Origin: Pectobacterium polonicum
GTDB taxonomy: Bacteria; Pseudomonadota; Gammaproteobacteria; Enterobacterales; Enterobacteriaceae
DNA length: 64,000 nt
Direction of reading: 5' to 3'
Assembly (NCBI RefSeq): GCF_005497185.1
Contig: NZ_RJTN01000022.1
Coordinates: forward strand, 1-64,000
Shown: piece after piece, positions 1,902 through 7,338 of the stretch
Numbering within the stretch: position 1 is the stretch's first letter
Layout: every line of letters begins with the position of its first letter
Notes under the pieces: model-generated
Databases searched by the model: none
What the model was told of the DNA's origin: nothing
The model's input: only the letters and a program-made list of their open reading frames with translations
Translations under genes and position numbers: made by a program

Positions 1902-2777
1902 TCAGAGACCTTTAAAAACCTGCCCACGATGCCACTCAATAAACCTATCAAGTGGGTAATACTCCCGCTTTTTAGGCAGAAACAGCGGCTTTCCCTCAAA
2001 ATCCCAGAATAGCCTTTCGACGATCTTGCTGCCATTCACGCCTTCAGAAACCATCAATTTCATGCCGTCATCAATACCGATAACGCCAATATCAAACGCA
2101 GAGTGATGTACTGAGCACAAGGCTAATCCGTTGGTCACGGTGCAAGGGCCACCGTATTGCTTCCATTTGATGTGAGCCGCTTCGAGGCCGACAGGCGTTG
2201 TATCGTGTCGTAAATCATAGCCGCATACCGCGCAGCGGTATTGGTACGCACGTAGTACCGTTTGACGGAAATGGGGATCGCGAGACTTGCGTACATCATC
2301 TAGCGATAGTTCCAGACGGTTGGCAATAACTTCCTGAACACTTTCAGGAAAATGCTCACTTAAAATTTGTTGAGCCAGTTTATCGATAAGTTGCGGCTGT
2401 TTGCACAATAGCTGATAGCTGACTTCATCAAATCCCCCCATGACACCGTGCTGAATCAGCTCACGATTTGGCGGCTCTTTACTCCCTTTCTGCGGTGAAC
2501 AATGCTCGTCGTTCTGCAACTGCCAAAAACCATCTCCCTTCAGCCGCCAGAAAGGCATTTCAGGGTAATGAGCACGCCGCTGTGGCCCAAAGCTGTTCAA
2601 AAGTGCCAATAGAGAAGGGCGGATTTCGTCGCCATAGTGAAACAGGCGCGGGTGTCCTTGTTGATAGGCCGATAAGACATAAAGCAGCAACAATGGCTTA
2701 TGAGGCGCACGTTGATCACCTTTACGCCATATCGACATGTTGGAAATTGCGGTTTGAAGTTCCTGAGCAGATGGCAT
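1902..2777 (-). CDS. HNH restriction endonuclease, probable phosphorothioate-DNA-binding (SBD-HNH, McrA-like)
   Basis: This 291-aa protein has two domains. The N-terminal 150 residues resemble the sulfur-binding domain of type IV enzymes that recognise phosphorothioated DNA: WRKGDQRAPHKPLLLLYVL, then FGPQRRAHYPEMPFWRL. The C-terminal part is an HNH nuclease with two CxxC/H metal clusters (CAVCGYD and CSVHH) and the catalytic core LEAAHIKW. The family cuts foreign DNA carrying DndABCDE-type sulfur modification; no dnd genes are visible here, as expected for a restriction-only enzyme. The ATG at 2777 is preferred to an in-frame TTG at 2822 because it directly precedes the conserved domain. Being alone between a dead IS and a regulator suggests acquired defence cargo. 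Confidence 0.75.
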   Translation of the reverse strand: MPSAQELQTAISNMSIWRKGDQRAPHKPLLLLYVLSAYQQGHPRLFHYGDEIRPSLLALLNSFGPQRRAHYPEMPFWRLKGDGFWQLQNDEHCSPQKGSKEPPNRELIQHGVMGGFDEVSYQLLCKQPQLIDKLAQQILSEHFPESVQEVIANRLELSLDDVRKSRDPHFRQTVLRAYQYRCAVCGYDLRHDTTPVGLEAAHIKWKQYGGPCTVTNGLALCSVHHSAFDIGVIGIDDGMKLMVSEGVNGSKIVERLFWDFEGKPLFLPKKREYYPLDRFIEWHRGQVFKGL

Positions 2778-2865
2778 ACGCAACACGGGCTGAAAGGGAA
2801 TATATTGCGATAATGCTCGCAAAATCAGTGGGATTCAAGTCTCCAGTTGCTCTCAGAATGTTACC

Positions 2866-3411
2866 TCACGCCATCTTATCAACGTAGATAACCCTGTGAT
2901 GCTCGGCGTCAGTGATACTTTGCATATGTGAGATTCTGGCGATGAGTAAAAAGGTGAGCAGATCCTTTATGCCATATTTTCTGTAGATATTATTTTTCAT
3001 ATTATTGGCTGTTTTATGGGTTATCACCATTTTCCTTGCGATGGTTTTTATTGCCATTCCGTCCAGCCAATAGCCGAAGAATATTTTCTCATTTGGTGAT
3101 AACGATATCGTCTTGCCTTTTATTTCTTTGAACGATGACAGGGCAGAGATCACTTTTTTAATCGTACTCATCGGTACGTGTTTTGATAATAGCAATACCT
3201 TTTTAGCCACCATCACCGGTGCATGTCTGCGGTTGTTGAGAATAATAATGAATGTCCGGTGTTCAGTGGTAATGATGTAGCTTAATAGTGCCATGTCGAT
3301 ACCGTGTTCAATATCAACAACAGTGATTGGCACATTACCGTTATCACTATTTCCCAGACAGGTAAACGCCGCCGTGGTGAAAGGGCAGCGGCTGAATATT
3401 TCAATGCTCAT
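2866..3411 (-). CDS. LuxR-type HTH transcriptional regulator, orphan
   Basis: This 181-aa protein ends in a LuxR/FixJ-type helix-turn-helix, starting LSPNEKIFFGYWLDGM and continuing IKTIARKM and HKTANNMKNNIYRKYGI, roughly residues 110-160. The N-terminal 100 residues resemble a degenerate receiver domain, as in the FimZ/EcpR/BglJ class. I see no clear phospho-accepting pocket, so it probably acts without a cognate kinase. The ATG at 3411 is chosen over an in-frame TTG at 3441. It follows the orphan flagellin gene by 51 bp on the same strand, so the two are probably co-transcribed. Its target is unknown; regulation of the flagellin or of fimbrial or motility genes is a guess from position. Confidence 0.65.
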   Translation of the reverse strand: MSIEIFSRCPFTTAAFTCLGNSDNGNVPITVVDIEHGIDMALLSYIITTEHRTFIIILNNRRHAPVMVAKKVLLLSKHVPMSTIKKVISALSSFKEIKGKTISLSPNEKIFFGYWLDGMAIKTIARKMVITHKTANNMKNNIYRKYGIKDLLTFLLIARISHMQSITDAEHHRVIYVDKMA

Positions 3412-3462
3412 GGCGATCGCGATTCGATAGAAAAATAGCAACGTGATGTTTATGGTGGCACG

Positions 3463-4917
3463 TCATCCCTGTAACAGCTTTAATACGTTTCCCGACTGCT
3501 GATTGGCTTGTGACAAGACGGACAGGGAAGCCTGTTGCAGGATCTGGGATTTTGTCATCGCGGAAACCTCAATGGCATAATCGGCATCCAATATGCGGGA
3601 GCGAGCGGCAGCGGTGGCAATTTTCTCCTGTGACAGCACGGCAGTGACGGATTCGAAGCGGTTCATCTGGCTGCCGTATTCACTGCGGTAACTGTCCAGC
3701 GTTTTCAGCGCGTTATCGAACGTGGCTAATGCCGCTCTGGCCTGTTCAGGTGCACCTAGCGTCACAGAGGAAAGTCCCAACGACTGGCTATCTGCGGGCG
3801 TAGGGTTGAGGGTAACCGTTTGCAATGCATCACCGAAACTCGCCCCGACGACAAACGTCGTTTCTTTGCTGATCGGTACTGAGGGCGGCAGTGGCGGGGC
3901 TGGCTCTGTCGGTGTGGGAAGTTCATCCCAGCTTGCGCTACTATTAAAGACGCCGCTGCCAACCACAATGACAATCAGATCTTCTGTCACCTCATCAATA
4001 TGAATTTTTTCCAGTCGGTTTGCAGCCCCCACATTCCCATCGTTAAATCCCCCGGTGTTGGCATCTTCAAAACGGTCACCATCACCGCTGTAGGTGATGG
4101 TCATACCTTGATACGTTGTCTGTGCCCCTGTATTGATATTGTATTCCCCGGCTTGCAGCAGCGAATCTGCCGAGTAGGTGGCTCCAGGTAAAAAGCCGTT
4201 ATCTTGCGTAATCACGGCGGTATTCATGGTACTTTCATCTGTCACACCGTTTGCTGACCAGACGATATCGGCGTCTGTGCCTTCTGCGGGCGTACCGGCC
4301 AGATGTCTGCCGTCTCGCGCAAAGAGCTGGATATCGTCATCGGCGCTCAATGAGTCGATGGTTATGGTGATATTTTTTGCGCCAGCAGGAATGTAAGCCA
4401 GCGAAATTACCCCAGAGGGAAATTGATGATTGATATTGGGGACGGGAAACTTTTCAGCCAGTGGCAAGGTTTCCCCCAATTTGGCAGGCTGAGGACCCGG
4501 TTCAGCTGGAGCCAACGGATAGCGGCCAAAGATCTGTGTCGACGAAGCGATGCGGTCGATCTCTTCCCTGATTTGTTGATATTCACCGTTCAGGCTTGCC
4601 TGGTCGGAATCTGACAACGTGCGATTTGCCGCCTGCACTGCAAGATGTCTGCCGCGTTGTATAAGGTTATTGATAGCATTAAGCCCGCTCTCGGCGGTTT
4701 GCATCAGGCTGAGACCGTCTTTCATTCCGTTGGTGATAACGCTGTTGGCATTCAGATTAGCGGTCATCCGGTTGGCAATCGCCTGACCAGCGGCATCATC
4801 CTTCGTACCATTGATGCGCAGACCCGATGAAAGCCGTTCAATCGCCTGGCTCAATCGGGTGGCCGATTTATCCTGTTGATTCCGTATCGTTAAATGAAGA
4901 GAGGTAATCGGCGTCAT
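3463..4917 (-). CDS. orphan flagellin with unusual central domain
   Basis: This 484-aa flagellin has both conserved ends. The N-terminal D0/D1 contains RLSQAIERLSSGLRINGTKD and DDAAGQAIANRMTANLN. The C-terminal D1/D0 contains RILDADYAIEVSAMTKSQIL and ends QQSGNVLKLLQG. The central ~200 residues do not look like enterobacterial FliC: they start NHQFPSGVISLAYIPAGAKN, run through acidic beta-rich sequence with DSLSADDDIQLF and GDGDRFEDANTGGFNDGN, and end in a Pro-rich linker (PTPTEPAPPLPPSVP). This resembles a carbohydrate-binding or pre-peptidase C-type beta sandwich rather than a metalloprotease, since no HExxH is present. The start is ATG 4917. It lies 19 kb from flhDC and is not the main fliC, which should lie beyond the window end next to fliD. 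It probably forms an operon with the LuxR-type gene. Confidence 0.75.
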   Translation of the reverse strand: MTPITSLHLTIRNQQDKSATRLSQAIERLSSGLRINGTKDDAAGQAIANRMTANLNANSVITNGMKDGLSLMQTAESGLNAINNLIQRGRHLAVQAANRTLSDSDQASLNGEYQQIREEIDRIASSTQIFGRYPLAPAEPGPQPAKLGETLPLAEKFPVPNINHQFPSGVISLAYIPAGAKNITITIDSLSADDDIQLFARDGRHLAGTPAEGTDADIVWSANGVTDESTMNTAVITQDNGFLPGATYSADSLLQAGEYNINTGAQTTYQGMTITYSGDGDRFEDANTGGFNDGNVGAANRLEKIHIDEVTEDLIVIVVGSGVFNSSASWDELPTPTEPAPPLPPSVPISKETTFVVGASFGDALQTVTLNPTPADSQSLGLSSVTLGAPEQARAALATFDNALKTLDSYRSEYGSQMNRFESVTAVLSQEKIATAAARSRILDADYAIEVSAMTKSQILQQASLSVLSQANQQSGNVLKLLQG

Positions 4918-5066
4918 TGCGCACCAGTCCTGATTTGGCAAAAACAACGGGATGATTTTTATCTGCTGATTATTGATTTACCGTACAACAAGCAATAGTT
5001 AGCCCTTCCCGATAATGGAAATAAAAACAGATAAAACATTACGTTATGGTTATTTTCGGCAATAGC

Positions 5067-5093
5067 TTATCGACGGTGGCGATCAAAAGATAA
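5067..5093 (-). promoter_or_regulatory. weak sigma-28-like promoter upstream of orphan flagellin
   Basis: On the minus strand TTATCTTT, 11 bp, GTCGATAA matches the sigma-28 consensus TAAAGTTT-N11-GCCGATAA at 7 of 8 positions in the -10 box and about 5 of 8 in the -35 box. It lies 150 bp upstream of the flagellin ATG. The leader would be long, so this is only a candidate. Confidence 0.35.
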
Positions 5094-5144
5094 TCGTTTT
5101 GATAGATCGATGCGATCGTATCGATCGGCGTTACCGATCAAAAG
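5080..5144. repeat. GATC-dense repeat block upstream of orphan flagellin
   Basis: The 10-mer CGATCAAAAG occurs directly repeated at 5080-5089 and 5135-5144. Between them are further GATC/ATCGAT units (AGATCGATGCGATCG, ATCGATCGG). Five Dam sites fall in about 65 bp of a non-coding stretch, which overlaps the candidate flagellin promoter. Possible roles are methylation-sensitive regulation or a regulator-binding array; neither is shown. Confidence 0.5.
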
Positions 5145-5179
5145 CGCTCTGAATCAGTGTTTACGTAACGTCATGAAAA

Positions 5180-5761
5180 TTAAGCAGGTCGGTAGTCTGC
5201 CCAGTAACTAAAGCAGGCGAAGAAGACATATTCTTCAATCACCGCCTGTAGTGTTGGCTGAGTGCGCAGGCGGGTGTTAATCCACACCTGAACCTGTCTG
5301 TCGGTTTTATCTGCCAATGATGCCCATTCACGATAAGACAGGCCGTCAAGTAGCTCGGACCAGCACAGTAGCGTCAGTATTTCCCGAATGCCGGGGTCGT
5401 TTTCCCGATCAAATAATTGCTGAAGACTGTCACTCAATACCTCCAGATGCAGTCGCTCACATTCGCTGATGAGAATACCACTCAGCATAGGGTATCGGCG
5501 AAGATAGCGAGCAGCCTTCACTGGCAGAATGGCTCTGCTACCCGCTTCAATACGTGATACGTCTGATTGCTGCATTAGCCTCGCGGGAATAATCAGATGC
5601 GCTTTACGCTGGCCTGGCAGAGACACTGTCGTCAGACTCAACTGATGGAAGGTATGAATTTTTCTCGTACTGATACCCTGACGGATGGCGTGCGTTGCAC
5701 TGTCATCAAGATGACTCTGATATTTATCCAACAACGTGGATAGCGTCGTGTTACGTGTCAT
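5180..5761 (-). CDS. hypothetical protein, 193 aa
   Basis: I do not recognise this protein. It is soluble, mostly alpha-helical in appearance, with no signal peptide or membrane segment. Notable stretches are RLMQQSDVSRIEAGSRAI near residue 63, which faintly resembles an XRE-type helix-turn-helix, and LSYREWASLADKTDRQVQVW near residue 137, which looks like a second helix-turn-helix (SLADKTDRQVQVW). A DNA-binding role is therefore conceivable but unproven. The ATG at 5761 is the only good start. It lies upstream of, and in the same orientation as, the orphan flagellin with 260 bp between, and its 3' neighbour region contains the GATC-rich repeats. It may be a regulator of that locus. Confidence 0.5.
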   Translation of the reverse strand: MTRNTTLSTLLDKYQSHLDDSATHAIRQGISTRKIHTFHQLSLTTVSLPGQRKAHLIIPARLMQQSDVSRIEAGSRAILPVKAARYLRRYPMLSGILISECERLHLEVLSDSLQQLFDRENDPGIREILTLLCWSELLDGLSYREWASLADKTDRQVQVWINTRLRTQPTLQAVIEEYVFFACFSYWADYRPA

Positions 5762-5915
5762 TTGGAAAATGTCTCCAATATGCGGAATAACAGACAGCCC
5801 GTGTCCTCCGTGGAATCGGATAGTGGTCTGTTATCCTGGGAAAATGAAATAACGGGGAGGGGGAATGGTGCTGTTTCGGTCTGAAATGATGGGAGAGATA
5901 ACGCGTCTGGATTAT

Positions 5916-6338
5916 CTATTCCTGATGAGCTCCTTCCTCGAATTCATGTCCCTTCTCCCTGGCGACAACACTGTAGATACCGTCTTTACATGTTGGGCAG
6001 AGTTTCTTACCGGTATAGTCTTTTTTGCACAGTACGCAATACCAGCTTTTCGGTTTAGGAAGAACGTAGCTGGCAAAGACCTTCTCTCGTAATTTTTTAA
6101 TCCTCTCTTCTTCTTTCTCTTCGGGGTCTCGATAGGGACATGCCATCAGTTTTTTTGAACTTATATTGAGCAGGTCATGCTCAAACCAGGTTCTTTCATG
6201 TTGAGAGCCTTTATGCAGGATTAACGTGCAGCCACAGGATGTACATGTCCAGTAACCTTGAGGCAGGCGGCTAGCCTCAGTCGAACTAACAAAACGATTT
6301 TTGGCGTTGTTAGCCAGATAGCATTTTAGAAAGCGCAT
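5916..6338 (-). CDS. putative zinc-ribbon protein of prophage/island type
   Basis: This 140-aa protein has cysteine pairs typical of zinc ribbons. CTSCGC lies near residue 30, a lone Cys near residue 67 (MACPYRDPEE), and two CxxC pairs (CVLCKKDY and CPTC) near residues 102-118, separated by a highly charged helix (EEKEEERIKKLREK). Similar short proteins occur in enterobacterial CP4-like islands next to AlpA, as here. No enzymatic motif is visible; nucleic-acid or protein binding is inferred. An upstream in-frame ATG at 6374 would add 12 residues, but 6338 (MRFLKCYL) fits the expected beginning of such proteins better. It is the last gene of a leftward group with alpA and the Gp2-like gene. 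Confidence 0.55.
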   Translation of the reverse strand: MRFLKCYLANNAKNRFVSSTEASRLPQGYWTCTSCGCTLILHKGSQHERTWFEHDLLNISSKKLMACPYRDPEEKEEERIKKLREKVFASYVLPKPKSWYCVLCKKDYTGKKLCPTCKDGIYSVVAREKGHEFEEGAHQE

Positions 6339-6430
6339 AAATTGATTCCATTTCTGGCGACAAGGAGTCCGCATGTAGAGTGTGTCCTATCGCTGTTAGC
6401 AGGAAAATAAGTAGGGTTGAAGGCGTGTGA

Positions 6431-6643
6431 TTACTGGCGAGATTGATCGATACGTTGCTGTAACCAGATTTCGACTTCACTTTGCAGCCAGCGGGAACTG
6501 CGGCCCAGCTTAATCGGCCTCGGAAATTCACCCAGTTGAATAAGCTTGTAAAACCATTTGTCGGTTAGTCCGGTCAACTGGGTGATAAATGCCATATCGA
6601 CGAACTGGTCTTCAAGAAGGCGATAATCGGTAGTGGTGCTCAT
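6431..6643 (-). CDS. AlpA-family phage regulatory protein
   Basis: A 70-aa MerR-like winged-helix protein of the AlpA type (DNA-binding activator of excisionase/integrase genes in P4/CP4 islands). The sequence VDMAFITQLTGLTDKWFYKL is the recognition helix-turn-helix, followed by GEFPRPIKLGRSSRWLQSEVEIW, where RSSRW and the Trp-rich end are family hallmarks. The start at 6643 is supported by an AGAGGAG ribosome-binding site 7 bp upstream; a longer frame to 6706 lacks one. It sits between a YagK-like gene and a zinc-ribbon gene, all on the minus strand. In CP4-57, AlpA drives excision of the island, but here the integrase is broken, so its target may be lost. Confidence 0.8.
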   Translation of the reverse strand: MSTTTDYRLLEDQFVDMAFITQLTGLTDKWFYKLIQLGEFPRPIKLGRSSRWLQSEVEIWLQQRIDQSRQ

Positions 6644-6747
6644 CGTTTTTTCTCCTCTGGTGAATGGAGAAGGAGCCGGAAAATGGAAATTGGCGAACTC
6701 CTTCAAACGATGTGCGCGTGGCGTAGTTTTTTATGGCTGAGTGACAA

Positions 6748-7338
6748 TTAACCCAAGCATCTTGGTCGGCCTCGACGAGTAGGTTGGGAGATTTCACTAA
6801 CCTGATAAATAATCCTCTCCGTTTTCTGATCCTGTTTACTCAGGTAACTCAAGATATATAGCATTCTGTTTATTCCTTCATCGTCGTCATAGGATGTCAC
6901 CCATTCCCCTTTTACCCTGTAATGTTCCTTGGGTTCACATCGGTGTGCATACCCATCCCCCTCTGTCACATTCGCCCAAATATCCCTAATGTCTTCAAAT
7001 ACGGCCCAAACCTTACGATGTTTCTGACCATTGAGATAAAAAGCAGCATGGATATGAAAACTATGTTCTTCGGTATATTCCAGCACCCAGACATATCCGA
7101 CGAGTCCCTTTAGCGAAGGGCACTGTTGTAATAACTGCGTGATATCAAAAACGGTGGAATGAGTATCTGCGTAATGATGGGCGTCACTCTTTTTTAAATA
7201 TGAGAAATCGACTCGTAGCATAAGTAATTTTGAATAACGGTCAAATAGTCGACTGAGGTGATTTCGTATATTTCTACGTAGTGTCCGATGGTGAGCGTAC
7301 CTGACGTTGGTATCAGTGATGATTTTATTGTATTCCAT
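6748..7338 (-). CDS. YagK/YfjJ-type protein (inovirus Gp2 family)
   Basis: A 196-aa protein matching the C-terminal domain of E. coli CP4-prophage YagK/YfjJ, also called inovirus Gp2. Recognisable parts are MLRVDFSYLK near residue 40, YVWVLEYTEEHSFHIHAAFYLNG near residues 82-104, and ILSYLSKQDQ near 165. The FHIHAAF segment places two histidines as in HUH-type rolling-circle initiators, so a link to replication or DNA nicking has been suggested for the family; no activity is proven. ATG 7338 is used. It is the first gene of the leftward trio with AlpA and the zinc-ribbon protein, and it points away from the 343-aa gene across a 765-bp AT-rich gap. Confidence 0.65.
   Translation of the reverse strand: MEYNKIITDTNVRYAHHRTLRRNIRNHLSRLFDRYSKLLMLRVDFSYLKKSDAHHYADTHSTVFDITQLLQQCPSLKGLVGYVWVLEYTEEHSFHIHAAFYLNGQKHRKVWAVFEDIRDIWANVTEGDGYAHRCEPKEHYRVKGEWVTSYDDDEGINRMLYILSYLSKQDQKTERIIYQVSEISQPTRRGRPRCLG

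Follow-up and report, generated by a model that had tools for sequence, protein, structure and literature searches.

We analysed a window of 64,000 nucleotides from Pectobacterium polonicum (contig NZ_RJTN01000022.1, positions 1 to 64,000), in which a flagellin gene, a gene for a LuxR-type regulator and a cluster of GATC sites lie together on the minus strand. The features of the locus were as follows:

5081..5139, minus strand: cis element with five GATC (5081, 5105, 5114, 5123 and 5136) and two OxyR-like half-sites (7/10 and 8/10)
4918..5100, minus strand: conserved leader from the half-sites to the start codon, holding the fifth GATC (78 of 185 alignment columns invariant in 13 rows)
3463..4917, minus strand: accessory flagellin gene, ATG at 4917, 484 aa
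4525..4917, minus strand: N-terminal flagellin part, D0/D1, residues 1-131 (PF00669 over residues 9-135)
3913..4470, minus strand: acidic central domain, residues 150-335, tentatively a PPC-like jelly-roll (family conservation, weak PPC matches, low-confidence model)
3745..3912, minus strand: Pro-rich linker and transition to the C-terminal part, residues 336-391 (from sequence)
3466..3744, minus strand: C-terminal flagellin part, D1/D0, residues 392-484 (PF00700 over residues 399-482)
2866..3411, minus strand: LuxR/GerE-type regulator gene, 181 aa from the ATG at 3411 (GerE HTH at 28.1 bits, cut-off 23.5)

The window protein is a bacterial flagellin. Both terminal Pfam domains exceeded their curated cut-offs, Flagellin_N (PF00669) at E = 8.2e-28 (97.6 bits, cut-off 26.6) and Flagellin_C (PF00700) at E = 5.8e-20 (71.8 bits, cut-off 23), in agreement with an earlier sequence-only reading that had recognised flagellin ends here. 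An alternative in-frame start, TTG at 4947, is possible and was rated less likely than the ATG at 4917. The central domain has a pI of 4.05 with 26 D+E against 7 K+R, and the HExxH zinc motif was absent from all 484 residues. PF00669 matched four proteins in the genome, namely FliC, the accessory flagellin, a paralogue on another contig, and a protein at C15:50045, inside the window, which we take to be FlgL, partly from its place beside flgK. The strain's FliC has 297 aa, and its gene stands beside fliD on the same contig, beyond the window and about 60 kb from the accessory gene. The accessory gene is thus far from fliD, as the proposed orphan position implied, does not lie at the fliD-fliA locus, and is not the strain's sole flagellin gene. 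FliC of the strain matched the accessory protein by the ends only, and among 19 carriers no central-domain match fell within the top FliC match; the central domain is therefore unlike FliC, as had been suspected, and is not an ordinary FliC variable domain.

The paralogue is 62% identical to the window flagellin, adjoins an HNH-domain gene, fliA and fliZ, and was found in 3 of 25 genus genomes (G000, G007 and G009). The HNH-domain gene (L035:7671-8468, minus strand) separates the paralogous flagellin gene from fliA; G009 (L037) has a similar gene there and G007 (L039) has none. In the stretch from fliC to the fliA-side paralogue, one species of this L037/L039 pair carries genes judged by eye to be of sugar- or amino-acid-modification type, and the other carries the flagellin lysine-N-methylase FliB (NF038110).

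Genes 92-96% identical to the accessory flagellin gene were found in named Pectobacterium records, and relatives at 80-88% in Samsonia, Brenneria and a Serratia marcescens record. Searched alone across 392 genomes and 154 genera of the same taxonomic family, the central domain matched 36 genomes in 18 genera, or 35 genomes in 17 genera without a chance match in G027. The G027 match (E 5e-5) was rejected as a family member; its frame sits in a phage-like region, and the match was counted as chance because we take that frame to encode phage baseplate J. G026 (36%), with no central-domain match in the 392-genome search, and G074 (33%), judged by eye from its sequence, were likewise not counted. 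Each carrier genome held one matching gene, the strain's own genome excepted. The frame was interrupted in four of the 35 carriers (G052, G410, G185 and G367), and the unbroken frames listed ran to 483-542 residues. The sites of the gene differed among the 24 of 35 carriers with fetched surroundings: it was found near thrS, near frdA and efp (gene names checked on loci L094 and L101), and on Pantoea and Duffyella plasmids, where the copies are annotated simply 'flagellin'. At least three PF00669 matches were present in all 21 carrier genomes tested, and FliC-type frames were recovered in 19 of them (not in G410 and G013).

Outside these carriers, a search of 5,426 E. coli genomes with one family member returned no DNA match, and the central domain had none in 50,697 phage records, a test of phage origin. 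Two scans of viral contigs for more sequences for folding returned no relative, and a sequence and profile search of 369 genomes of the class returned the strain's own genome and one decayed remnant only. The remnant, in G812 (L119), derives from a flagellin of this family and lies in another taxonomic family of the class. A flagellin on a Pseudoalteromonas megaplasmid (L163:5518-6873, plus strand), adjoining a chemoreceptor gene, matched the central domain at 34%, and from this match the domain may reach beyond Enterobacterales.

Alignments were made of 39 rows, which leave out G052, G367, G410 and the carriers without fetched surroundings. The rows include duplicate records (Samsonia = G168, Brenneria = G280), so that the 19 Pectobacterium-type rows represent 17 distinct records. 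G185, whose frame is broken and which contains unread bases, contributed to the promoter count and was excluded from the tree and from the counts of invariant positions. In a tree of the flagellin ends, 18 FliC sequences formed one group apart from 38 family rows; the midpoint root fell inside the family, and the tree was therefore read as unrooted.

Conservation along the protein was compared with that of FliC in the same genomes, using 136 pairs from 17 of the 19 genomes with a recovered FliC (21 tested, G013 and G410 without). Median identity in the family was 0.44 in D0N, 0.59 in D1N, 0.54 in the centre and 0.59 in D0C, compared with 0.88, 0.72, 0.18 and 0.87, respectively, in FliC. Of the 136 family pairs, the centre was more conserved than D0N in 127, than D1N in 32 and than D0C in 51; in none of the 136 FliC pairs did it exceed D0N, D1N or D0C. 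Because the centre mostly beats D0N, and beats D1N and D0C in a minority of pairs, the family shows roughly even conservation from end to end and lacks the conserved D0N and variable centre of FliC. For G193 and G359 the second FliC copy was used, and the FliC of G203, with an odd N-terminal start, entered the identity pairs and was left out of the invariant-position count. The FliC D0 motif SLxTQNNLNKSQ is replaced in the accessory flagellin, and the window protein keeps 13/21 FliC-invariant positions in D0N, 34/50 in D1N, 10/15 in D1C and 21/26 in D0C. The dN/dS of the whole gene was 0.09 among 10 Pectobacterium copies, and 0.05 (three rows, with dS saturated or nearly so) and 0.12 (two rows) in two other clades. 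It was low in the flagellin ends too, so these ends still matter. By these measures the whole protein is constrained, with packing surfaces that have diverged from those of FliC. The constraint on the central domain across genera, the opposite of FliC in the same genomes, implies a specific ligand or function.

Regarding the fold of this domain, PPC (PF04151) was its commonest library match, in 10 of 21 members at E<=1 (best E 1.9e-4). The score apparently stayed below the cut-off of 25.9 bits, at 12.9 bits for the window protein and, by our estimate, about 23 bits for the best member. Another jelly-roll in Pfam, ADAMTS_spacer1, was hit by 5 of 21 members, at best with E 0.01, one PHROGs family of no known function matched 3 of 21 (best E 0.08), and no NCBIfam family matched in more than one member. 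Two HisF-like matches of the profile to PDB sequences (E 0.42 and 0.54) were taken as chance. Modelled alone, the central domain gave a beta sandwich at low confidence (pLDDT 52.8, pTM 0.61), for which Foldseek returned nothing at E<=0.001 (best 0.043); a whole-protein AF2 model with nine close sequences (pLDDT 44) was too low for use. The VIA neighbours of the low-confidence model were jelly-rolls, all at Z<8, with the best (Z 7.8, rmsd 3.5, 113 aligned) within the chance range; the rows, possibly chance, included the ADAMTS13 spacer (Z 7.8), Csp jelly-rolls and the ColG collagen-binding domain (Z 5.1). For the carbohydrate-binding or PPC sandwich that had been proposed, PPC was thus the leading library match, while a match above the Pfam cut-off or by Foldseek did not materialise, and we call the fold PPC-like tentatively. 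The invariant acidic motifs DDDxQxFxRDG and YSGDxDR suggest a metal or ligand site in the domain.

The LuxR-type gene lies downstream of the flagellin gene on the same strand, with 51 bp between the flagellin stop and its ATG, and no minus-strand terminator-like site was found in 2700-5800. This arrangement points to a two-gene unit, probably an operon. A survey of the genus strengthened the operon-like pairing that had been noticed in the window: the flagellin and a LuxR-type protein (best match at least 54% identity) occurred in the same 13 of 25 genomes, a paralogue of about 30% present in all 25 being excluded from the count. The two genes were adjacent in 12 of the 13 carriers, with both frames whole in 11, and the pair was also found in Samsonia, Brenneria and a Serratia record. 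At 49% or more, the LuxR-type protein occurred in 4 of 198 sampled family genomes (two Pectobacterium, Samsonia and Serratia), all flagellin carriers; G012 has two more LuxR-like copies elsewhere in its genome. The flagellin frame was broken in two of the 13 genus carriers, G012 (flagellin end and adjacent LuxR gene broken) and G015 (frame split in two), so the flagellin is dispensable.

Taken together, the best explanation of these sequences is a widespread, non-essential family of enterobacterial accessory flagellins with a conserved PPC-like surface domain. Searches of the open-licence PMC literature found no description of an orphan flagellin, of PPC combined with flagellin, or of this gene or its control, and to the extent of these searches the family and its control are apparently undescribed. 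The second copy near fliA, the spread of the family over 17 sampled genera and the GATC element with its OxyR-like half-sites had escaped the earlier reading.

The surroundings of the pair vary. Directly downstream of the LuxR gene, the window carries a phosphorothioate-DNA-dependent HNH restriction endonuclease gene (1902-2822, minus strand; NF045808, 459 bits), and on this side of the pair other species have a helicase-type protein, T6SS-like or other genes, like a defence hotspot. On the other side, DUF7828/zinc-ribbon and weak YagK/YfjJ-type genes at 5916-7338 (minus strand), with a presumably AlpA-like gene between them, are the remains of a small mobile element, which in this strain separate the flagellin from DosC-type cyclase and chemoreceptor genes.

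The control region differs between the Pectobacterium-type clade and the rest of the family. An exact TAAAG-N14/15-GCCGAT, a motif of sigma-28 type, was present within 80 nt of the start in 20 of 20 rows outside this clade and in 0 of 19 within it (39 rows). Since the motif has 23 occurrences in all over 1.45 Mb of strand sequence from these loci, the 20 copies near a start account for nearly all of them. The window gene has no exact sigma-28-type motif within 80 nt of its start, and a degenerate site (12/16) at -149 is not kept in G005. No core promoter was identified upstream of the window flagellin; a promoter presumably lies within the 4918..5100 leader.

The clade carries the GATC element upstream of this leader. 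The conserved block, GATCGGTAACGCCGATCGATACGATCGCATCGATCTATC, begins 222 bp upstream of the start codon, the fifth GATC following further on in the window. Across 13 rows, identity was 71% in the 35 preceding columns, where a contig end truncates one row, 97% in the element and 88% in the leader after it; the unit is taken to begin at this block because identity jumps there though the upstream neighbours differ between species. Five GATC fall within 59 bp, and the fetched loci (1.02 Mb, with many copies of this locus among them) contained clusters of five in 70 bp nowhere else; of 20000 shuffles of the upstream sequence, 11 reached even four. The element was present, once each, in exactly the 13 of 25 genus genomes with the flagellin and LuxR genes, and absent from the other 12. 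A relic second copy in P. betavasculorum (G007; L063:6780-7099) is joined to a C-terminal flagellin remnant and looks like the product of an internal deletion. The 39-base element gave weak scattered matches only to phage and plasmid records (best E 0.1). A leader dyad, TTCCC-N6-GGGAA, was set aside as an operator, being imperfect in the window and other rows and without a perfect copy in the window.

The element resembles the control sites of known OxyR/Dam switches, described as having GATC inside OxyR half-sites (PMC2909390, PMC3350482, PMC12902445). Several GATC likewise stand within OxyR-like half-sites upstream of the window gene. The first half-site, GATCGGTAACGCCGATC, is identical to that of P22 gtr, GATCGGTAACAACGATC, at 15 of 17 positions, and the Samsonia half-site at 16 of 17. 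At least 15 matches to the gtr half-site occurred 19 times in 2.04 Mb of strand sequence; 17 of these were this element, and a single site present in two related genomes accounted for the other two. The element, gtr and agn43 have a 13-bp GATC pair in common. The half-sites of opvAB with embedded GATC score 8/10 and 7/10, as described in PMC12902445, and those of the window 7/10 and 8/10; in the same scan, E. coli agn43 had two half-sites of 8/10 and P22 gtr reached 8/10, 10/10 and 8/10, above the window element. The half-sites are spaced by 22 bp in the window and by 32 bp in gtr, the latter described as the spacing of reduced OxyR (PMC2909390), so the gtr-type spacing is not that of the main pair; a weaker pair at 31 bp (7/10 and 7/10) is also present. 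Two half-sites of at least 7/10 at 22 bp with at least three GATC, a combination set after the site had been seen, occurred in 1.03 Mb at this element only, with 22 loci showing it, and P22 gtr in the same scan does not show it because its half-sites stand 32 bp apart. The OxyR consensus score of 15/20 is not rare, since another 15 occurs in the 64-kb window and 7 of 20 shuffles reach 15. Both oxyR and dam were present in all 25 genomes of the genus; a stop was counted within each OxyR match, and in the one match read it proved to be the natural gene end.

Because the element resembles proven sites, co-occurs with the flagellin and LuxR genes, and belongs to a clade in which the sigma-28-type motif is missing, we favour, with somewhat better than even confidence, a flagellin-regulator operon under OxyR/Dam epigenetic control, which would resemble Salmonella fljBA in its working and differ from it in its switch. 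Bound at the half-sites that contain GATC, OxyR would block Dam methylation there, and methylation of the half-site GATC would block OxyR binding, so that through this mutual exclusion each cell would inherit an ON or an OFF state. ON cells would make the flagellin, which its flagellin ends predict to be exported by the standard flagellar apparatus, and would also make the LuxR-type regulator, by which other, perhaps flagellar, genes would be adjusted. Switching, export, co-transcription, the role of the regulator and the place of the protein in the filament are what we infer from the sequences, whereas the gene, its family, the conservation, the co-occurrence and the element are observed. Several observations count against a switch. 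Conservation is not confined to the half-sites, since it peaks in a 39-column stretch that begins 12-16 columns further 3'; a Brenneria copy 88% identical lacks the element; and a GATC site is missing from G023 and G010, as is the fifth from other rows. The palindromic element could instead bind the LuxR protein.

In Salmonella, the fljBA operon encodes the second, phase-2 flagellin and, after it, a regulator, and lies apart from fliC. The window likewise has a flagellin and then a regulator gene, separate from fliC, with a presumed heritable switch; the analogy is one of working and not of membership. Whereas fljBA switches by DNA inversion, with FljB and Hin in Salmonella (PMC11868660), the switch proposed here is OxyR/Dam methylation, the regulator is of LuxR type, and the flagellin contains a conserved domain that FliC lacks. 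With gtr(P22), agn43 and opvAB the locus shares GATC in OxyR-like half-sites upstream of a surface-structure gene; it differs in that the gene is a flagellin and the switching a prediction from sequence, and from gtr(P22) also in the 22-bp against 32-bp spacing. As in Vibrio vulnificus FlaE/FlaF and Campylobacter FlaC, the latter cited as a secreted flagellin-homologous protein in PMC4863622, there is a further flagellin in addition to the main filament protein, and D0/D1 positions in it are changed; unlike these, which were tested as secreted, the window protein is known from its sequence and has a conserved central domain of about 185 residues. Flagellinolysins, as described in PMC5595980, similarly have a domain added in the flagellin central region. 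These are metallopeptidase flagellins, unlike the window protein, which lacks HExxH, and PPC falls outside the ten most frequent domains in Table 1 of that paper (PMC5595980).

We gave slightly less than even chances to the possibility, compatible with a switch, that the protein is exported by the flagellar apparatus and not built into the filament, as a secreted flagellin-homologous protein whose centre binds polysaccharide or a host surface. The precedent is FlaE/FlaF of Vibrio vulnificus, described as secreted through the flagellar gate, absent from the filament by 2-D gel and EPS-binding (PMC6692518). The replaced D0 motif, the many changed FliC-invariant D0/D1 positions, and a D0N identity of 0.44 against 0.88 in FliC agree with this, whereas the well-kept D0C (21 of 26 FliC-invariant positions) and the low dN/dS of the flagellin ends speak against it. 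By their conservation, the divergent D0N leans to a secreted protein and the kept D0C to a minor filament subunit. A minor subunit that shows an adhesive PPC-like domain on the shaft and is expressed with the normal filament, the GATC cluster being a mere operator part, for instance of the LuxR protein, is in our judgement unlikely. The sigma-28-type motif kept in 20 of 20 aligned relatives elsewhere and the conservation of the centre as a surface module would fit such a subunit; the absence of the motif from all 19 rows of the window clade, the resemblance of the half-site to proven OxyR/Dam sites, and the divergence of D0N would not. The adhesive, tip-modifying flagellin suggested in the earlier reading is a possibility that these data neither favour nor disfavour.

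That the gene is a functionless, decaying passenger of a variable region beside the flagellar cluster appears very improbable. Its patchy presence (13 of 25 genomes), the broken copies in G012 and G015, the relic in G007 and the mobile neighbours are what such a passenger would leave, but dN/dS is 0.05-0.12 over the whole gene in three clades, with dS near saturation in one, and the element, flagellin and regulator are kept as a unit. Beyond the favoured OxyR/Dam-controlled operon, we offer as a speculation, rather doubtful as a whole, that OxyR and Dam flip the flagellin-regulator operon, that the LuxR-type protein reprograms the main flagellar or biofilm genes, and that the cells of a heritable minority produce either a coat on the filament or a secreted flagellin, with a domain for binding carbohydrate or protein; this arrangement would have arisen by replacement of the sigma-28 promoter of an old and widespread accessory flagellin.

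DNA inversion is the known basis of flagellar phase variation in enterics. If the favoured reading is true, an OxyR/Dam-controlled flagellin would represent a second, independent route to flagellar phase variation, in soft-rot plant bacteria, and the putative switch could let part of a population alter its flagellar surface while the remaining cells keep theirs.
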